Positions 56,869 through 63,067 of a DNA stretch of 64,000 nt are shown piece after piece (position 1 is the stretch's first letter; each line of letters starts with the position of its first letter). The stretch covers positions 558,001-622,000 of the forward strand of contig NZ_FOTP01000002.1 in assembly GCF_900114605.1 (NCBI RefSeq), in the 5' to 3' direction. The translations under genes and the position numbers were made by a program. The notes beneath the pieces were generated by a model. It saw only the letters and a list, made by a program, of their open reading frames with translations, searched no databases and was not told where the DNA came from. The stretch is from Bradyrhizobium sp. NFR13 (lineage in GTDB: Bacteria; Pseudomonadota; Alphaproteobacteria; Rhizobiales; Xanthobacteraceae).

Positions 56869-57708
56869 ATGCGCTGCCTTGTCGTAGCCGATCTCCACTA
56901 TTCGCTGCCCCAGTTCGACTGGCTACTCAGCGTCGCGCCGCAATTCGACCTCGTGATCTTTGCTGGCGACGCTCTTGATATCGCCTCGGTCGTCGACTTC
57001 CGCGCTCAAATCCTGGTGGTGAAAAAGTATCTCGGCCTGCTTGCCCAACGCACCAAGGTGATCCTGTGCTCTGGCAATCACGATCTCGACGAACGCAACG
57101 ATGAAGGCGAGAAGATCGCGCGATGGGTTGGCGATGTCAGACAACTCGGCATTGCCTGCGATGGCGACAGCCTCTCCATCGGCGATACGCTCTTCACGGT
57201 TTGCCCATGGTGGGACGGTCCGCTGGTGCAGCAGCGTATCGTGCAACAACTCAGCGAAGCATCCGCACAAAGCGCAAAACGCTGGATCTGGGTCCATCAC
57301 GCACCGCCGACCAACTCGCCGACGAGCTGGGGCGGCAAGCGTTACTTCGGCGATGTCGAACTGGTGCAATGGATCGAGGCGCATCGGCCCGCGATGGTGA
57401 TCTCCGGCCACGTGCATGAGTCTCCGTTTGTCAAAGACGGCTCATGGTACGACCGGATTGGTGAGACCTGGGTGTTCAATGCAGGCCGACAGTTCGGACG
57501 GCCGCCAACTTACATCGTGCTCGACCTCGATGACGGCACAGCATTCTGGCTATCGGCGGAAGGCGCTGACCATATCGATCTGAACGCTCCGCTGCAGCGT
57601 CCGGCGTTACCGATCAAGGTCGCGCCCGCATGGCTCACATCCGTGGATCGTTTTGTCGATCCGAGCCCCGATCGGAACCTGGTGACACCTTCGTCGGCGA
57701 CAGGTTGA
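56869..57708 (+). CDS. Calcineurin-like metallophosphoesterase
   Basis: A 279-residue phosphoesterase with a full set of dinuclear-metal motifs: DLHY, GDALD, SGNHDLDE, VHHAPP, GHVHES. Substrate unknown: YfcE/CpdA-like folds cut cyclic nucleotides or other phosphodiesters, and a cNMP-binding protein is encoded just beside it, but nothing in the sequence decides. Starts MRCLVVADLHYS, with GGACCTCGG a little far upstream. The last 74 bases overlap the converging gene tail to tail. Confidence 0.88.
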   Translation: MRCLVVADLHYSLPQFDWLLSVAPQFDLVIFAGDALDIASVVDFRAQILVVKKYLGLLAQRTKVILCSGNHDLDERNDEGEKIARWVGDVRQLGIACDGDSLSIGDTLFTVCPWWDGPLVQQRIVQQLSEASAQSAKRWIWVHHAPPTNSPTSWGGKRYFGDVELVQWIEAHRPAMVISGHVHESPFVKDGSWYDRIGETWVFNAGRQFGRPPTYIVLDLDDGTAFWLSAEGADHIDLNAPLQRPALPIKVAPAWLTSVDRFVDPSPDRNLVTPSSATG

Positions 57709-58132
57709 CCATGTTTTCCAGGAGCTCGCCGACCATGGACAGATGCGTACCATGGCCGGCATATTGCTGCTTGATATCGGCGAGATAGCTCGTCGCCACA
57801 TTGAGCCGCTGCGCCAGCAGCCGCGCGATCATCAGCGCGACGGTCGGGTGATCCCGCAGGAAATCCGTCGCATTCTCGAACTCATAGACTTGCGTCTCCA
57901 TCGCGGCGCGGACGGTCGCGGTATGCGGCTGTTCGAGGAGCACCGACATTTCACCGACCACAGCACCGGGTTCGGTCAAACTCGCAACTACCATGTCGCC
58001 CTTGACGACATCGAGCTGCCCTTCGATCAGCACGAACAAATGCCCGCTGGTCTGTCCTTCCCGGATGATCGTATCGCCCGCTGCAACGCTGTGCTTCACG
58101 CCATCGCTGCAATGATCCAGAACGGCGCGCAT
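57635..58132 (-). CDS. Stand-alone cyclic-nucleotide-binding protein
   Basis: A 165-residue protein made only of a Crp/Fnr-like cNMP beta-barrel (IREGQTSGHLFVLIEGQLDVV, GEMSVLLEQPHTATVRA as phosphate-binding cassette), followed by a helix (MIARLLAQRLNVATSYLADI) and a tail; no helix-turn-helix. The cassette carries Arg in TATVRA and Glu in GEMSV, so cAMP or cGMP binding is plausible. Start at ATG 58132 because GGAG lies eight bases upstream; 58192 has none. Probably a modulator rather than a transcription factor. The nearest cyclase is encoded at 42754-43767. Confidence 0.85.
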   Translation of the reverse strand: MRAVLDHCSDGVKHSVAAGDTIIREGQTSGHLFVLIEGQLDVVKGDMVVASLTEPGAVVGEMSVLLEQPHTATVRAAMETQVYEFENATDFLRDHPTVALMIARLLAQRLNVATSYLADIKQQYAGHGTHLSMVGELLENMVNLSPTKVSPGSDRGSDRQNDPRM

Positions 58133-58287
58133 ATCAGGCACTCCAACATGGTTGATAAAGCGTATGCTCGCCGTGACGATCGCGTGACACAAGGCCCGAA
58201 TGCGCCGAAATTATCGGCAACCGGCGCATATTGGGTGCGGCGGAGCTTGCGAGACGTCCCGCCCCGGCTACCACGTCTTTCTCCCTG

Positions 58288-58315: not shown

Positions 58316-58334
58316 TAGTTGCTTCCTTAGCAAT

Positions 58335-58379
58335 AAGGCCCGTCCTTCCAGACGGGCCGTTGCCATTTTAGGGGGCCTT
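58335..58379 (+). promoter_or_regulatory. Leader with competing hairpins before the URC operon
   Basis: GGCCCGTC (58337-58344) pairs with GACGGGCC (58351-58358). Alternatively AAGGCCC (58335-58341) pairs with GGGCCTT (58373-58379), which holds the GGGGG ribosome site before ATG 58384. The two stems share bases 58337-58341, so they exclude each other. Translational switch inferred from these pairings. Confidence 0.45.
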
Positions 58380-58383
58380 TGCG

Positions 58384-59640
58384 ATGAGCCGTTCCAACCG
58401 GATCGATCATATTCGCCTGACGTCGCATCCTGCGCCGGGCGCCAAACATCACTTCCCGATCCAGTGGGGCGCAGCCTCCGCACGCGAACGTGGACCGGTC
58501 ATCGGCACCGTTTCCCGCCCGCAGGACCGCAACGTCATCGGCACCCATGGCGGCTCCTATTCGGTCTATCGCGCACTCGCGGTTTCATCCGGCGCGCTTG
58601 ATCCGCTGAAGCGCCCCGACCTCACAAACACCCATCCCGCTGCTGTCGTCGGGCCTTTCGGACAATGGACCGATCCCGAGAAGATCGTATCGCTCGATCC
58701 CTGGGGTCATCTCGTTGCCGAAAACTTTGCGCCCGAGATCGCCGAAGGGATCGATATCCGCCCGAGCATCGCGATCACCAAGGCGCGGCTCGATCTGCCC
58801 GAGCTGCAGGCCGCGATCGCTGGCGGTCGCCTCAAACACGACGGCGACGTCGTTCATGCCAATGGCAGCGTCTCCGTCGTCAAGATTGCCATCGATCCCG
58901 TGTGGTATCTGCCCGGTCTCGCCAAACGCTTTGATACCAGCGAGAACAATCTGCGCCGCCAGCTGTTCGAACAGACCGCGGGCATGTTTCCCGAACTCGT
59001 GACGCGGCCTGACCTGCAGGTGTTCCTGCCGCCCATCGGCGGGACTACCGCCTATCTGTTCGGCGACGTCAGCAAGCTACCGGATCACACGACCAAGATC
59101 ACCTGCCGCGTTCACGACGAGTGCAACGGCTCCGACGTGTTCGGCTCCGATATCTGCACCTGCCGCCCCTATCTAATTCACGGTATCGAGGAATGCGCCC
59201 GCGCCGGCCAGTCCGGCGGTCTCGGCATCATCATCTACAACCGCAAGGAAGGCCGCGCGCTCGGCGAGGTCACCAAATTCCTCGTCTACAATGCGCGCAA
59301 GCGCCAGGAAGGCGGCGACGCCGCTGCGCAGTATTTCGAACGCACCGAATGCGTGGCCGGCGTGCAGGATGCGCGCTTCCAGCAGTTGATGCCGGACGTC
59401 GTGCATTGGCTCGGCCTCAAGCGCATCGATCGCTTCATTTCCATGAGCGACATGAAGCATGATGCGTTGACCAGTCAGGGCGTCGAAATCGTCGAGCGCG
59501 TGCCGATCCCCGACGACATGATCCCGGCCGATGCGCATGTGGAGATCGCCGCCAAGAAGGCGGCCGGCTACTTCACGCCGGACCCGGTGACACCGCAGGA
59601 TCTGATCGACTCCGTCGGTCGCGGGCTTGAGAAGTATTGA
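58384..59640 (+). CDS. GTP cyclohydrolase II-like protein of the URC uracil-degradation pathway
   Basis: A 418-residue protein whose C-terminal half (about 200-400) is a GTP cyclohydrolase II domain: zinc Cys set at residues 247, 258 and 260 (DECNGSDVFGSDICTC), IIIYNRKEGRALGEVTK and a Tyr in KFLVYNARK. E. coli RibA is 196 residues; here about 200 extra residues precede the domain, as in URC1 proteins of yeasts. Together with the next gene (DUF1688, URC4) and upp, it matches the URC set, where URC1 is thought to open the uracil or uridine-nucleotide ring; the exact chemistry is not settled. Riboflavin synthesis is the alternative role, less likely because no ribB/ribE/ribH is near. Confidence 0.88.
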   Translation: MSRSNRIDHIRLTSHPAPGAKHHFPIQWGAASARERGPVIGTVSRPQDRNVIGTHGGSYSVYRALAVSSGALDPLKRPDLTNTHPAAVVGPFGQWTDPEKIVSLDPWGHLVAENFAPEIAEGIDIRPSIAITKARLDLPELQAAIAGGRLKHDGDVVHANGSVSVVKIAIDPVWYLPGLAKRFDTSENNLRRQLFEQTAGMFPELVTRPDLQVFLPPIGGTTAYLFGDVSKLPDHTTKITCRVHDECNGSDVFGSDICTCRPYLIHGIEECARAGQSGGLGIIIYNRKEGRALGEVTKFLVYNARKRQEGGDAAAQYFERTECVAGVQDARFQQLMPDVVHWLGLKRIDRFISMSDMKHDALTSQGVEIVERVPIPDDMIPADAHVEIAAKKAAGYFTPDPVTPQDLIDSVGRGLEKY

Positions 59641-59650
59641 GATATCAGCA

Positions 59651-60895
59651 GTGAATCCCCAGACCCCGGAAGCCTCTGCCGCCCTCTCGTTACTGTCAGC
59701 TCACGCCGTGCGCACCCGTGCGCAACGCATGCTGAACCTCGGCCTCGACGACAAACTGCCGAACTTCCGTATCGATCTCACGCGCATGGACGACGTGATC
59801 AACCTGGTGCTGGACACGACGCGCGCCTCCTATCCGTCGCTCGATGTCCCGTTCCATTCGCGCTGGCGTCACTTCGTCAACGCCGGCGACAATCGCTGGG
59901 CCGATGTCGCGGATGGCATTTCATGGCCTGATCGCGCGGCACGCGGACGCGCGGAATTCGATCTCGCCATCACCAGCGTGTTCCTCGATGCCGGGGCCGG
60001 TCCGACCTGGCGCTATACCGATCCCCAAACCGGCGCGGCCATCGGCCGCTCCGAAGGTCTCGGTCTCGCGAGCCTCGCGATGTTCGCCGGCGGCACGTTC
60101 TCTGCCGATCCCGCACAGCCGCTGCGCGCCGATGCCAGCAAGCTCACAGAGCTCGATGTCAGCGATCTCAAACGCGGCATGCAGGTCTCCGACACCAATC
60201 CAATGGTCGGCATCGACGGCCGCGCCGATCTGCTGCGCCGGCTTGGCGAACACGTGGCGTCGAAGCCCTATGTGTTCGGCACGAAGGATACGCCGCGGCC
60301 CGGCGGATTGTTCGACCGCTTGGCATCGCTGGCTGACAATGGCCGCCTGCCCGCTCCCACCATCCTCTCGGAACTGCTGCTGCAACTTGGTCCGATCTGG
60401 CCGTCGCGGCTGACGCTGGACGGCATCGCGCTCGGCGATTGCTGGAAGCATCCAGCGATGACGACCTCGGATGCGACGAGCGGCCTTGTGCCCCTCCACA
60501 AGCTGTCGCAATGGCTGGCCTATTCGCTAATCGAACCGCTGCAGACCGCAGGCATCGATGTGACCGATATCGACGGCCTCACGGGACTGGCCGAATATCG
60601 CAATGGCGGCCTTTTCGTCGATGGTGGCGTCCTGAAATTTCGCGATCCCGCTGATGCCGCGCGTGAGCACGACGTATCGTCGCCGCTGGTGGTGGAATGG
60701 CGGGCACTGACCGTGGCGCTACTTGACCGCGTCGCCGGCGGCCTGCGACAAAGACTGAAGCTCGACGCGACGTCGCTGCCGCTGGCCAAGGTGCTCGAAG
60801 GAGGCACATGGGCCGCCGGTCGCATCCTGGCGCGCGAGCGCCGCGAGGATCATTCGCCGCCGGTGAAGGTCATCAGTGACGGTACGGTTTTCTAG
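59651..60895 (+). CDS. DUF1688 protein (URC4-like)
   Basis: A 414-residue protein of the DUF1688 family, the bacterial counterpart of yeast URC4, needed for growth on uracil as nitrogen source but without a known reaction. It starts at GTG 59651, ten bases after the previous stop (the frame continues up to a TTG at 59627, which would overlap). Recognised by SRWRHFVNAGDNRWADV, MFAGGTFSADPAQPLRADAS and the C-terminal TVALLDRVAGGLRQRL. Catalytic residues cannot be named. Its position between a GCH II-like gene and upp is the strongest evidence for its role. Confidence 0.85.
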   Translation: MNPQTPEASAALSLLSAHAVRTRAQRMLNLGLDDKLPNFRIDLTRMDDVINLVLDTTRASYPSLDVPFHSRWRHFVNAGDNRWADVADGISWPDRAARGRAEFDLAITSVFLDAGAGPTWRYTDPQTGAAIGRSEGLGLASLAMFAGGTFSADPAQPLRADASKLTELDVSDLKRGMQVSDTNPMVGIDGRADLLRRLGEHVASKPYVFGTKDTPRPGGLFDRLASLADNGRLPAPTILSELLLQLGPIWPSRLTLDGIALGDCWKHPAMTTSDATSGLVPLHKLSQWLAYSLIEPLQTAGIDVTDIDGLTGLAEYRNGGLFVDGGVLKFRDPADAAREHDVSSPLVVEWRALTVALLDRVAGGLRQRLKLDATSLPLAKVLEGGTWAAGRILARERREDHSPPVKVISDGTVF

Positions 60896-60925
60896 ATCAA
60901 AGACGGTTTTACACTCTCGCAACGG

Positions 60926-61564
60926 ATGAGGTTCATGGACGGCGTCACGATCGTTAATCACCCGCTGGTGCAGCACAAGCTGACGCTGATCCGCGACAAG
61001 AACCGCTCGACCAAGGGCTTTCGCGAACTGCTCAACGAAATCGGCATGCTGCTGTGCTACGAGGTGACGCGCGACCTTCCGCTCACCGATGTCGAGATCG
61101 AAACGCCGATCATGAAGATGACCGGCAAGGAAATCGCCGGCAAGAAGCTGGTCTTCGCACCGATCCTTCGCGCCGGCCTCTCTTTCGTCGAAGGCATGAT
61201 CGGCCTCGTCCCGTCAGCGCGTATCGCGCATATCGGCCTGTACCGAGATCCCGAAACATTTGTGGCCGTGGAATACTTCTTCAAGGCGCCGACCAATCTC
61301 GACGAGCGCCTCGTCATCGTGATCGATCCGATGCTGGCCACGGCAAACACCGCGGTGGCTGCCATCGATCGCATCAAGGAGCGCGGCGCCAAGGATATCC
61401 GCTTCGTCTGCCTGCTGGCAGCGCCGGAAGGCATTGAACGTCTGCGTGGCTATCATCCGGACGTCCCGATCTGGACCGCGGCGATCGACGACCGGCTGAA
61501 CGATCACGCCTATATCGAGCCGGGTCTCGGTGATGCCGGTGACCGTGCTTACGGCACCAGGTAG
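60926..61564 (+). CDS. upp: Uracil phosphoribosyltransferase
   Basis: Converts uracil and PRPP to UMP, 212 residues. Motifs: [36 protein letters not shown], and the PRPP-binding loop [21 protein letters not shown]-terminal uracil site [19 protein letters not shown]. Start is ATG 60926, or ATG 60935 ([12 protein letters not shown]), which would use the former as part of its ribosome site. It follows the DUF1688 gene after 30 bases. In the URC pathway uracil is first made into a nucleotide, so Upp has a catabolic role here besides salvage. Confidence 0.96.
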
Positions 61565-61621: not shown

Positions 61622-63067
61622 TCAGTTGATCATCAGCAGCCAGGGCATTACGACCAGCAGCAAGCCGGCGAAATAGATCAACCCGAAAATCAGGCCGAAC
61701 TTCCAGAAGTCGGCCTTGCCTATATAGCCGCTGCCAAAATACATCGGTGCCGGTCCGGTGGCATAGGGCGAGATCACGCCCATCAGGCCAAGCGAATAGA
61801 TGCAGAGCAATGTCAGAGTAGACATCGGGATTCCTGGAATACTCGATCCCACCGCCAGCACGACAGGCAGCATCGCCGCAGCGTGCGCCGTAATGCTCGA
61901 GAAAAAATAGTGGATCCAGAAGAAAATCGAGACCAGCAGGATCATCGCAATGGTCGGGCTGAATGTGGCGAGTGGAGCCGCCAGGCCGGCGGCAGCCCAT
62001 TTGATGAAGCCGATGTCGTTGAGGCCGGATGACAACGTCAGCAGCGATGTGAAGTAGAAAAACACCTCCCACGCCGCTTTCTCGGCGATGATGTCGGAAA
62101 ACGTGATAACGCCGGTGACGAGCATCAGCGAGATCACAACGAACACCACCATCGTCGCATTGATGAAGTTCGAACCGAGGCCAGGTAGCGAGATGTCGGG
62201 ATTGGATCCGGTGATCCACAGGAACATCGCAAGCACGACCAGTCCGGCCATGATCCATTCACTGCGCGACAACGCCCCCATCGACGCGAGTTCGCTCGCG
62301 CTCCACGCCACGATCTCCGGGCTTTCTTTCACCTCCGGTCGGCAAATTGCGTAGCTCAGCAGTGGCAGAAGCAAAATCAGCGGCACGCCGAGCGGCGCGA
62401 AGCCGATGAACCACTGTGACCAGCCGACGTCCACGCTCACGATCTTCTTGGCGATGCTCAGTGCAGCCGCATTGGGCGCAAGCGCGGTGAGGAACATCGA
62501 GCTCGTGACCGCAGTCGCCGCGAAGGCGGTCCACATCACGTAGGTTCCGATCCTGCCGGCTGTCGGACCCGGCTCCGATCCGTAGATCTTCGGGATGTTG
62601 CTGACAATCGGATAGACCGTGCCGCCACTGCGCGCGGTGTTCGATGGCGTCGCCGGCGCGAGAACCAGATCGGACAGCGCAACGGCGTAACCCAGTCCCA
62701 CCGTGTTGCGCCCGAGGCCGCGAACCAGCAGCAAGGCAAGACGCCTGCCAAGGCCGCTCTTGCGATAGCCGATCGAGAATACGAAGGCGCCGACGATCAG
62801 CCACACTGTGCTTTCGGAGAATCCGCTCAACATCCAGCGCAGCGACTTGTTGGGATCGTGTTCGACATATCCCATCACGCCCGCAAAGGTCAGACCGATC
62901 AAACCGACCGCGCCAACAGGCATGGATTCCAGGATCAGGCCGGTAATCACCGCAGCGAAAACGGCAAAATAATGCCACTGATTGGCGACAAGCCCTGCCG
63001 GAATCGGGATGACGTACAGCACCAGCCACACAGCGAGAGGTGCAATCTTCTTCCAGCTCAGCGACAC
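61622..63067 (-). CDS. DASS-family anion:sodium symporter (dicarboxylate/citrate type)
   Basis: A 481-residue inner-membrane carrier with about 12 helices and two re-entrant hairpins, importing or exchanging di- or tricarboxylates. Family signatures SNTARSGGTVYPIVSN (first SNT motif) and SPYATGPAPMYFGSGYI near the end. The GTG at 63067 has GGAGGA six to seven bases upstream. It converges with upp and may serve citrate, malate, 2-oxoglutarate or tartrate; substrate open. No two-component sensor next to it. Confidence 0.9.
   Translation of the reverse strand: MSLSWKKIAPLAVWLVLYVIPIPAGLVANQWHYFAVFAAVITGLILESMPVGAVGLIGLTFAGVMGYVEHDPNKSLRWMLSGFSESTVWLIVGAFVFSIGYRKSGLGRRLALLLVRGLGRNTVGLGYAVALSDLVLAPATPSNTARSGGTVYPIVSNIPKIYGSEPGPTAGRIGTYVMWTAFAATAVTSSMFLTALAPNAAALSIAKKIVSVDVGWSQWFIGFAPLGVPLILLLPLLSYAICRPEVKESPEIVAWSASELASMGALSRSEWIMAGLVVLAMFLWITGSNPDISLPGLGSNFINATMVVFVVISLMLVTGVITFSDIIAEKAAWEVFFYFTSLLTLSSGLNDIGFIKWAAAGLAAPLATFSPTIAMILLVSIFFWIHYFFSSITAHAAAMLPVVLAVGSSIPGIPMSTLTLLCIYSLGLMGVISPYATGPAPMYFGSGYIGKADFWKFGLIFGLIYFAGLLLVVMPWLLMIN

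Follow-up and report, generated by a model that had tools for sequence, protein, structure and literature searches.

Which step of pyrimidine breakdown might be carried out by DUF1688 (URC4), a protein family encoded here between a homologue of GTP cyclohydrolase II (GCH II) and a uracil phosphoribosyltransferase, is the question raised by this locus of Bradyrhizobium sp. NFR13. The window, that is, the whole stretch of 64,000 nucleotides that was analysed, contains the following features, all on the plus strand:

58323..58375, plus strand: leader stem-loop directly 5′ of URC1, a candidate regulatory leader (covariance model, stem counts, fold z-score)
58384..59640, plus strand: URC1/UrcA, UTP-cyclohydrolase-type GCH II homologue, 418 aa (PF12471, with PF00925 in the C-terminal half)
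59651..60895, plus strand: URC4, DUF1688 (PF07958), 414 aa from a GTG start, predicted N-ribosidase with a Qng1 fold (PF07958, AlphaFold, Foldseek)
60926..61564, plus strand: upp (URC6/FUR1), uracil phosphoribosyltransferase, 212 aa (TIGR01091)

The operon and its genomic setting

Three tightly spaced co-directional genes at 58384-61564 had been described in the original prediction, and their place, strand and order were all confirmed, together with the gaps of 10 bases between URC1 and URC4 and of 30 bases between URC4 and upp. The likely start of URC4 is the GTG at 59651 rather than the TTG at 59627, which lies inside URC1, and its stop is at 60895. The identification of the genes as URC1, URC4 and URC6 is borne out by family models, by the same order in other bacteria and by strict co-occurrence. 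URC4 matches PF07958 with an E-value of 7.2e-142, and Upp reaches 269.6 bits with TIGR01091 (cut-off 208.35), as the sole match to this model in the genome. URC1 combines PF12471 (GTP_CH_N, E 1.3e-80) with PF00925 (E 1.2e-13) and scores 752.8 bits against NCBIfam NF005536 (cut-off 403); its 418 residues, compared with the 196-residue RibA chain 2bz0_A, agree with the earlier description of a GCH II-like protein about twice the size of RibA. Thus identified, the three genes are a complete bacterial URC operon.

In an alignment of the window with 39 of the 71 loci that carry URC1 (40 sequences), residues C247, C258, C260 and R331 of URC1 are kept throughout, and the three cysteines, which line up with cysteines of RibA, are presumably the GCH II-type zinc ligands. 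The nearest solved relatives of URC1 are 7ej3 and 7eev, with E-values of about 1e-175 (1.2e-175 for residues 8-411 against 7ej3_A); their PDB name is GTP cyclohydrolase II, and we infer that they are the UrcA structures of Zhang et al. 2021. The statement that the chemistry of this route is only partly known is now partly outdated, as a paper on UTP cyclohydrolase exists (Zhang et al. 2021) and a sentence in a review has UrcA hydrolysing UTP in two steps.

The gene arrangement goes far beyond chance. Among 80 related loci, for which DUF1688 was the sole search criterion, the fetched stretch contains URC1 in 71 and upp in 77, in identical order where present, and the same order is seen in records of Gordonia, Azospirillum and Pseudoroseomonas. 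One of the nine loci lacking URC1 (L021) ends at a contig edge just upstream of URC4, and in the remaining eight URC1 is located elsewhere in the genome (8/8; 10/10 over all the genomes searched); ORFs listed at these loci were considered as substitutes, but were set aside given the URC1 found elsewhere. A search for co-occurrence, which the original prediction had proposed, covered 299 genomes of the phylum: 18 have both DUF1688 and GTP_CH_N, and none has one without the other. Nine of 13 listed plasmid relatives are called 'URC4/urg3 family protein' at NCBI, and four carry no annotation in that table. Clustering of neighbouring ORFs was swamped by the antisense ORFs of GC-rich DNA; it also grouped further families outside the operon, in up to 32 of the 80 loci, among which there may be a further conserved partner.

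The original prediction had also stated that the operon comes with neither a uracil permease nor Rut genes, which is true of the locus and not of the genome, where RutA, RutB, RutC and RutD are present. Every above-cut-off match to RutA, RutB, PF00860 or PF02133 is on a contig other than that of the window, weaker matches on the contig of the window fall outside the window, and in the family-model scan neither URC1 nor URC4 was hit by any Rut family. Neither a urea-degrading enzyme nor a base transporter was found among the flanking genes scanned; two urease alpha subunit genes score above cut-off in the genome. Because RutA-D could carry growth, a test of single knockouts on uracil is confounded in this organism, and growth unaffected by the loss of a URC gene would not speak against a URC role here; knock-out tests in such hosts need a Rut-free background.

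The predicted fold of DUF1688

The enzyme Qng1 (DUF2419) releases queuine from queuosine-5′-monophosphate, and its fold is the one predicted for DUF1688. The AlphaFold model of the protein in the window has a mean pLDDT of 93.8 and a pTM of 0.92, and a Foldseek search of the PDB with this model returned 11 chains at E ≤ 0.001, all 11 of them Qng1/DUF2419 of bacterial or human origin. The top match has an E-value of 1.4e-9 and a TM-score by target of 0.75, and the first match after the Qng1 chains drops to an E-value of 0.65. By query the TM-scores range from 0.56 to 0.60, with an rmsd of 5.0-5.9, indicating that the core agrees; DUF1688 exceeds the matched chains by 70-99 residues, and parts of it that have no counterpart are strongly conserved.

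By sequence alone the link between both families is weak. Profile-profile comparison (hhalign) gave E-values of 0.0036 and 0.0043 with a probability of only 8-9%, both profiles having little diversity (Neff about 2). None of 199 column shuffles of the Qng1 profile reached the real score of 29.64, the best one scoring 25.06 with an E-value of 0.02, no more than five times the real one, whereas the reversed-profile control scored 12.88 and a URC1 versus Qng1 control gave an E-value of 0.22. The Pfam model Q_salvage (PF10343) did not match URC4, for which PF07958 was the only family found even at an E-value limit of 10, and the DUF1688 profile had no match among PDB sequences. A single-sequence search of the PDB with DUF1688 yielded DARPin matches only, judged to be chance. 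In 200 genomes of the phylum Q_salvage had no match, and nor did the control. Our literature search found no assigned fold family, demonstrated chemistry or bacterial activity data for DUF1688/URC4.

The presumed active-site positions of the two families can be compared. Residues K199 and D231 of StQng1, known from the PDB mutants K199C and D231N, align with K284 and E315 of DUF1688, whereas D298 and W302, which the accessible text of PMC11592518 counts among the active-site residues of Qng1, were set by hand opposite E383 and W387, where the end of the hhalign alignment is unclear, guided by a [DE]-xxx-W pattern that both families have with the same spacing. Within 75 DUF1688 sequences, K284, E315 and W387 are invariant (75/75 each) and E383 is kept in 73, with Q in the other two. 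Asp231 of Qng1, whose catalytic role would follow from the mutant complex, is thus replaced by Glu in 75/75 sequences, with its acidic character retained. At the compared positions, two of the four being hand-placed, Qng1 and DUF1688 would have in common a Lys, a Trp and an acidic residue.

The leader before URC1

A structured leader precedes the operon, with an inner stem at 58337-58358, 25 bases upstream of the URC1 ATG, and a fold z-score of -2.80 (one of 200 shuffles folds equally well). Strong stems ending 18-30 bases before the start are found in 37 of 69 URC1 leaders versus 15 of 438 other gene starts of the same loci; in the other 32 leaders no strong stem occupies this position. A covariance model (R1) was built from 15 of 19 leaders, these 15 matching by construction, and its search of 59 sources (800,672 bases) gave 20 matches at E ≤ 0.005, all of them URC1 leaders; the window matches with an E-value of 1.6e-13 and is the same place as locus L126, both being counted among the 20. 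Seven Bradyrhizobium-like loci (L013-L017, L019 and L092) had no match to R1, which, like the 32 leaders without a strong stem, speaks against a general feature. Covariation is modest: three pairs with double changes, reached by 34 of 500 shuffles, and further pair types reached by 289 of 500, together with doubly changed cells reached by none and a covariation score reached by 2 of 500.

A search of the operon region with Rfam gave four matches, all under their gathering scores and taken as chance. The promoter scan found one weak site, at chance rate and not upstream of URC1, and in the same scan the leader stem looked like a terminator on the minus strand and not on the plus strand. A role as terminator of the upstream gene is disfavoured in the window, where this gene (57635-58192) points the opposite way, but in several relatives a U-rich tail follows the stem. 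The stem-loop, a feature of many relatives, is a candidate regulatory leader or attenuator.

Proposed pathway and known systems

Uracil phosphoribosyltransferase converts uracil and PRPP into UMP, which general kinases take to UTP. The route would start in this way, the family assignment of Upp being firm. URC1/UrcA would then use its zinc site to open the uracil ring of UTP, freeing a three-carbon part and leaving a ribosylurea with 5′-phosphates, as suggested by homology to its solved relatives and by the literature for UTP as the substrate. In a predicted third step, URC4/DUF1688 would act as an N-glycosidase of Qng1 fold, cutting the bond between urea and ribose to yield urea and ribose (phosphate). 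Finally, urease, whose genes are present, would presumably release ammonia from the urea, and the three-carbon fragment would exit as malonate semialdehyde or 3-hydroxypropionate. The accessible text of PMC7530994 has URC4 degrading ribosylurea to urea in Lachancea kluyveri; the Qng1 fold and this yeast step, taken together, therefore point to an N-ribosidase acting on (phospho)ribosylurea. We regard as quite probable that the operon encodes the full URC route with DUF1688 in this role; for this organism all of the chemistry is our inference, and so is the exact number of phosphates on the URC4 substrate.

The same fold evidence would also serve an N-ribosidase acting one step earlier, on the acrylate-bearing ring-opened nucleotide, to give ureidoacrylate for RutB, so that the URC and Rut routes would meet. 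Although RutB, RutC and RutD score above cut-off in the genome, ribosylurea is the reported substrate of URC4 in yeast (PMC7530994) and UrcA is described, in the review sentence, as doing both hydrolyses itself, which make this earlier step improbable. Somewhat more doubtful is a Qng1 fold kept by descent, with DUF1688 removing the acrylate or being a non-catalytic partner of UrcA in place of any N-glycosidase chemistry: the change from the catalytic Asp to Glu in all the sequences, the conserved segments of DUF1688 without Qng1 counterpart and a strict co-occurrence with UrcA, also expected of a partner protein, fit such a role, but K, E, E (Q in two of 75) and W are retained at the four active-site positions, two of which were hand-placed, and the eight of 80 loci in which DUF1688 does not adjoin URC1 indicate that the two genes need not share an operon. 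A cluster for riboflavin or another GTP-derived cofactor, with URC1 as a true GCH II, is very unlikely, as URC1, even if still named 'GTP cyclohydrolase II' at NCBI, stays below the cut-off of each of the six listed RibA/RibBA models (59.2 bits versus 148 for RibA, and 49.6 versus 205.85) and carries M-S-[DN]-M-K in 40/40 sequences where the RibA segment aligns as 'nnpkk', a separate RibB-RibA fusion is encoded elsewhere in the genome, and upp and DUF1688 are a poor fit as neighbours.

Returning to the (phospho)ribosylurea N-ribosidase, a fuller statement of it seems likely, if a little less assured: DUF1688/URC4 would be a ribosylurea-phosphate N-glycosidase distantly related to Qng1, with Glu for the catalytic Asp and urea instead of deazaguanine as the leaving group, and in Tardiphaga and part of Bradyrhizobium the operon would also have a structured leader of its own as a candidate attenuator. 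If true, the pyrimidine catabolism of bacteria and fungi would be linked to the human queuine salvage enzyme and the Qng1 fold would extend beyond queuosine; the predicted reaction could be assayed through the release of urea or ribose from ribosylurea phosphates.

Among known systems, the Rut pathway, which attacks free uracil in a reaction that depends on oxygen and a flavin, is another uracil route, with RutA-D in this genome. The presumed UrcA/UTP cyclohydrolase structures (7eev/7ej3) align with URC1 over near its full length, with no notable difference visible. With Qng1/DUF2419 (PDB 7u07, 7u91, 7u5a, 7ulc, 7ugk) DUF1688 would share the predicted fold and the alignment register at 15-18% identity, the context of the former being queuosine and that of the latter pyrimidine catabolism. 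The URC pathway of Lachancea (Saccharomyces) kluyveri, with URC1, URC4 and URC6 (Andersen et al. 2008, described in PMC3869809), employs the same three families, whereas here only these three genes are clustered and urease is encoded elsewhere. In Schizosaccharomyces pombe, urg1, urg3 and urg2 (GCH II family, DUF1688 and UPRT) are clustered and uracil-induced, according to the accessible text of PMC2174524; the gene families are the same in this eukaryote. The operon itself is not new, since the conservation and shared organisation of URC genes in bacteria and fungi, including the bacterial URC1/URC4 linkage, are already in print (PMC3869809, accessible text); what is added is the predicted Qng1 fold of DUF1688, which suggests a concrete reaction and named residues.

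The URC operon and its occurrence in other genomes

The three genes of the original prediction (a GTP cyclohydrolase II-like gene, a DUF1688 gene and upp) were found where it had placed them, and family models name them URC1, made of GTP_CH_N and the C-terminal part of GCH II, URC4 (DUF1688) and upp, a uracil phosphoribosyltransferase. The gaps are 10 bases between URC1 and URC4 (stop at 59640, GTG at 59651) and 30 bases between URC4 and upp (60895 to 60926).

58337-58358, just upstream of URC1: stem-loop, from leader comparison and a covariance model
58384-59640, plus strand: URC1 (UrcA)
59651-60895, plus strand: URC4 (DUF1688, PF07958)
60926-61564, plus strand: upp

Convergent with upp lies a gene for a DASS-family sodium-coupled anion symporter (61622-63067, minus strand), with no sign of operon membership seen in the window. 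The DUF1688 protein shares 99% identity with its Tardiphaga robiniae LMG 26467 counterpart, so the genome is very probably that of a Tardiphaga, a genus of alphaproteobacteria found in soil and root nodules. URC1 aligns with PDB 7ej3/7eev across nearly its whole length and weakly with Escherichia coli RibA; the three of its cysteines that line up with cysteines in RibA are kept in 40 of 40 sequences, and a separate RibB-RibA fusion is encoded in the same genome.

When 80 loci were retrieved using DUF1688 alone and presence was scored within the fetched DNA, URC1 was present in 71 and upp in 77. Among the nine loci lacking URC1, one (L021) is truncated by a contig end, and the other eight genomes all encode URC1 elsewhere; together with two genomes carrying an adjacent URC1, it was thus found in 10 of 10 genomes searched whole. 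In seven loci from Enterovirga, a Methylocystis MAG and some other Hyphomicrobiales (L026, L027, L028, L029, L032, L035 and L040), URC1 does not adjoin URC4 and each genome has exactly one URC1 match elsewhere. Across the phylum, PF07958 and PF12471 (the GTP_CH_N of URC1) are each found in the same 18 of 299 genomes, spanning 12 of 153 genera. In this whole-genome-search set, URC1 adjoins DUF1688 in 18/18, and upp is present in 15/18 short stretches, one of the remaining three being truncated by a contig end. The same gene order was read from three of four records, the fourth (Cupriavidus) lacking a gene table at that place: plasmids of Gordonia polyisoprenivorans, an actinobacterium, and of Azospirillum brasilense, both with a URC1/URC4 overlap of 4 bases, and a Pseudoroseomonas record. 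In A. brasilense, upp is followed by genes for a BMP-family ABC transporter and an amidohydrolase, in that order (L136:8005-13158), a candidate system for bringing nucleosides or bases into the URC route.

Probable relationship of URC4 to the queuosine salvage enzyme Qng1

The predicted structure of URC4 (mean pLDDT 93.8, pTM 0.92) was compared with the PDB by Foldseek, giving 11 chains at E <= 0.001, all of them bacterial or human Qng1/DUF2419, and a twelfth match at E 0.65. Plain sequence searches do not detect this similarity. Profile-profile comparison of a URC4 alignment (the window protein and 61 of the 80 related loci) with solved Qng1 chains, supplemented with two plasmid-borne relatives matching Pfam Q_salvage, gave E-values of 0.0036 (two Qng1 sequences) and 0.0043 (four), at a printed probability of only 8-9%, which is why controls were run. 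None of 199 column shuffles attained the real score (best shuffle E 0.02), the reversed profile scored 12.88, and URC1 against Qng1 gave E 0.22. The link is suggestive from sequence alone, and its main weight is the fold match of the predicted model. A gene of the queuosine-salvage family was also seen on a conjugative IncP plasmid from Azospira (L140:943-1857), in a stretch of hypothetical genes with a DNA methyltransferase nearby; our guess is that its product may work on 7-deazaguanine DNA and not in tRNA turnover.

In the alignment, URC4 H-K284-L-S-Q stands opposite Y-K199-R-A-Q of Sphaerobacter Qng1, and L-T-G-L-A-E315-Y-R opposite L-T-A-F-A-D231-Y-K, K199 and D231 being the residues mutated in PDB 7u5a and 7ulc according to the entry titles. 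E383-x3-W387 was placed by hand, with the spacing in support, opposite D298-x3-W302, two active-site residues of the Sphaerobacter enzyme according to PMC11592518. The four offsets are 85, 84, 85 and 85, and among 75 DUF1688 sequences K284, E315 and W387 are kept in all 75 and E383 in 73 (Q in 2). The DUF1688 stretches at about 109-141 and 261-267, nearly invariant and with no clear Qng1 counterpart seen, may, as a guess, hold the different substrate.

URC1 leader and other uracil genes

Many Rhizobiales have a stem-loop some 20-27 bases ahead of the start of URC1 (the window and loci L003-L012, L018, L022-L025, L055, L067, L073 and L080, among others), with a stem sequence that differs among Bradyrhizobium/Tardiphaga, Bosea, Microvirga and Methylobacterium. 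Strong stems ending 18-30 bases before the start occur in 37 of 69 distinct URC1 leaders versus 15 of 438 other gene starts, picked by codon-position GC, from the same loci; since the leaders are mutually related, this contrast is not a probability. A covariance model built from part of the Bradyrhizobium/Tardiphaga leaders and run over 59 sources (800,672 bases) matches URC1 leaders only, leaving seven Bradyrhizobium-like ones without a match; covariation is modest, and no Rfam family matches above threshold. The element may be an attenuator, another leader element, a protein site or a terminator.

The genome carries two sets of uracil degradation genes, URC and Rut. RutA lies on contig C6 (G000:C6:1242100, locus L124) with no other Rut gene seen adjoining. 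Some 210 kb from it on that contig, RutB, RutC and RutD form a group with ABC-transporter-like genes (L141:2747-7388). All four Rut proteins score above family cut-offs, so that a uracil growth test of URC would be meaningful only in a rut mutant background. The operon copy of upp is the single one, and its loss should therefore also abolish uracil salvage through that route. The genome encodes two urease alpha subunits, one NCS1-type transporter (contig C10) and a sole NCS2 permease, a xanthine permease by model score whose neighbours resemble purine genes by eye.

Proposed URC4 chemistry and known systems

The URC genes and their linkage in bacteria are described in PMC3869809, from work that we take to be Andersen et al. 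2008. Other papers report a uracil-induced urg1-urg2-urg3 cluster in fission yeast (PMC2174524), URC as one of four pyrimidine routes, with Zhang et al. 2021 cited for the UTP cyclohydrolase (PMC12507026), a two-step hydrolysis of UTP by UrcA (PMC9499338) and the conversion of ribosylurea to urea by URC4 of Lachancea kluyveri (PMC7530994). Given these accounts of the cluster and of UrcA, the operon and its first step were already known. The chemistry proposed here for URC4 was not found stated in the open-licence PMC papers searched, most URC work being in the subscription literature.

URC4 is rather likely to be an N-glycosidase acting on (phospho)ribosylurea and a relative of Qng1. It would hydrolyse the N-glycosidic bond of 5′-phosphorylated ribosylurea, freeing urea. 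Since the reported substrate of UrcA is UTP, that of URC4 is probably phosphorylated, which would suit a protein related to a nucleotide-specific enzyme. Qng1 releases queuine from queuosine-5′-monophosphate, according to PMC11592518 and PMC9406330 and to PDB entry titles. This is the cleavage of an N-glycosidic bond, and the step from ribosylurea to urea would likewise be an N-glycosidic hydrolysis, so that the two reactions agree.
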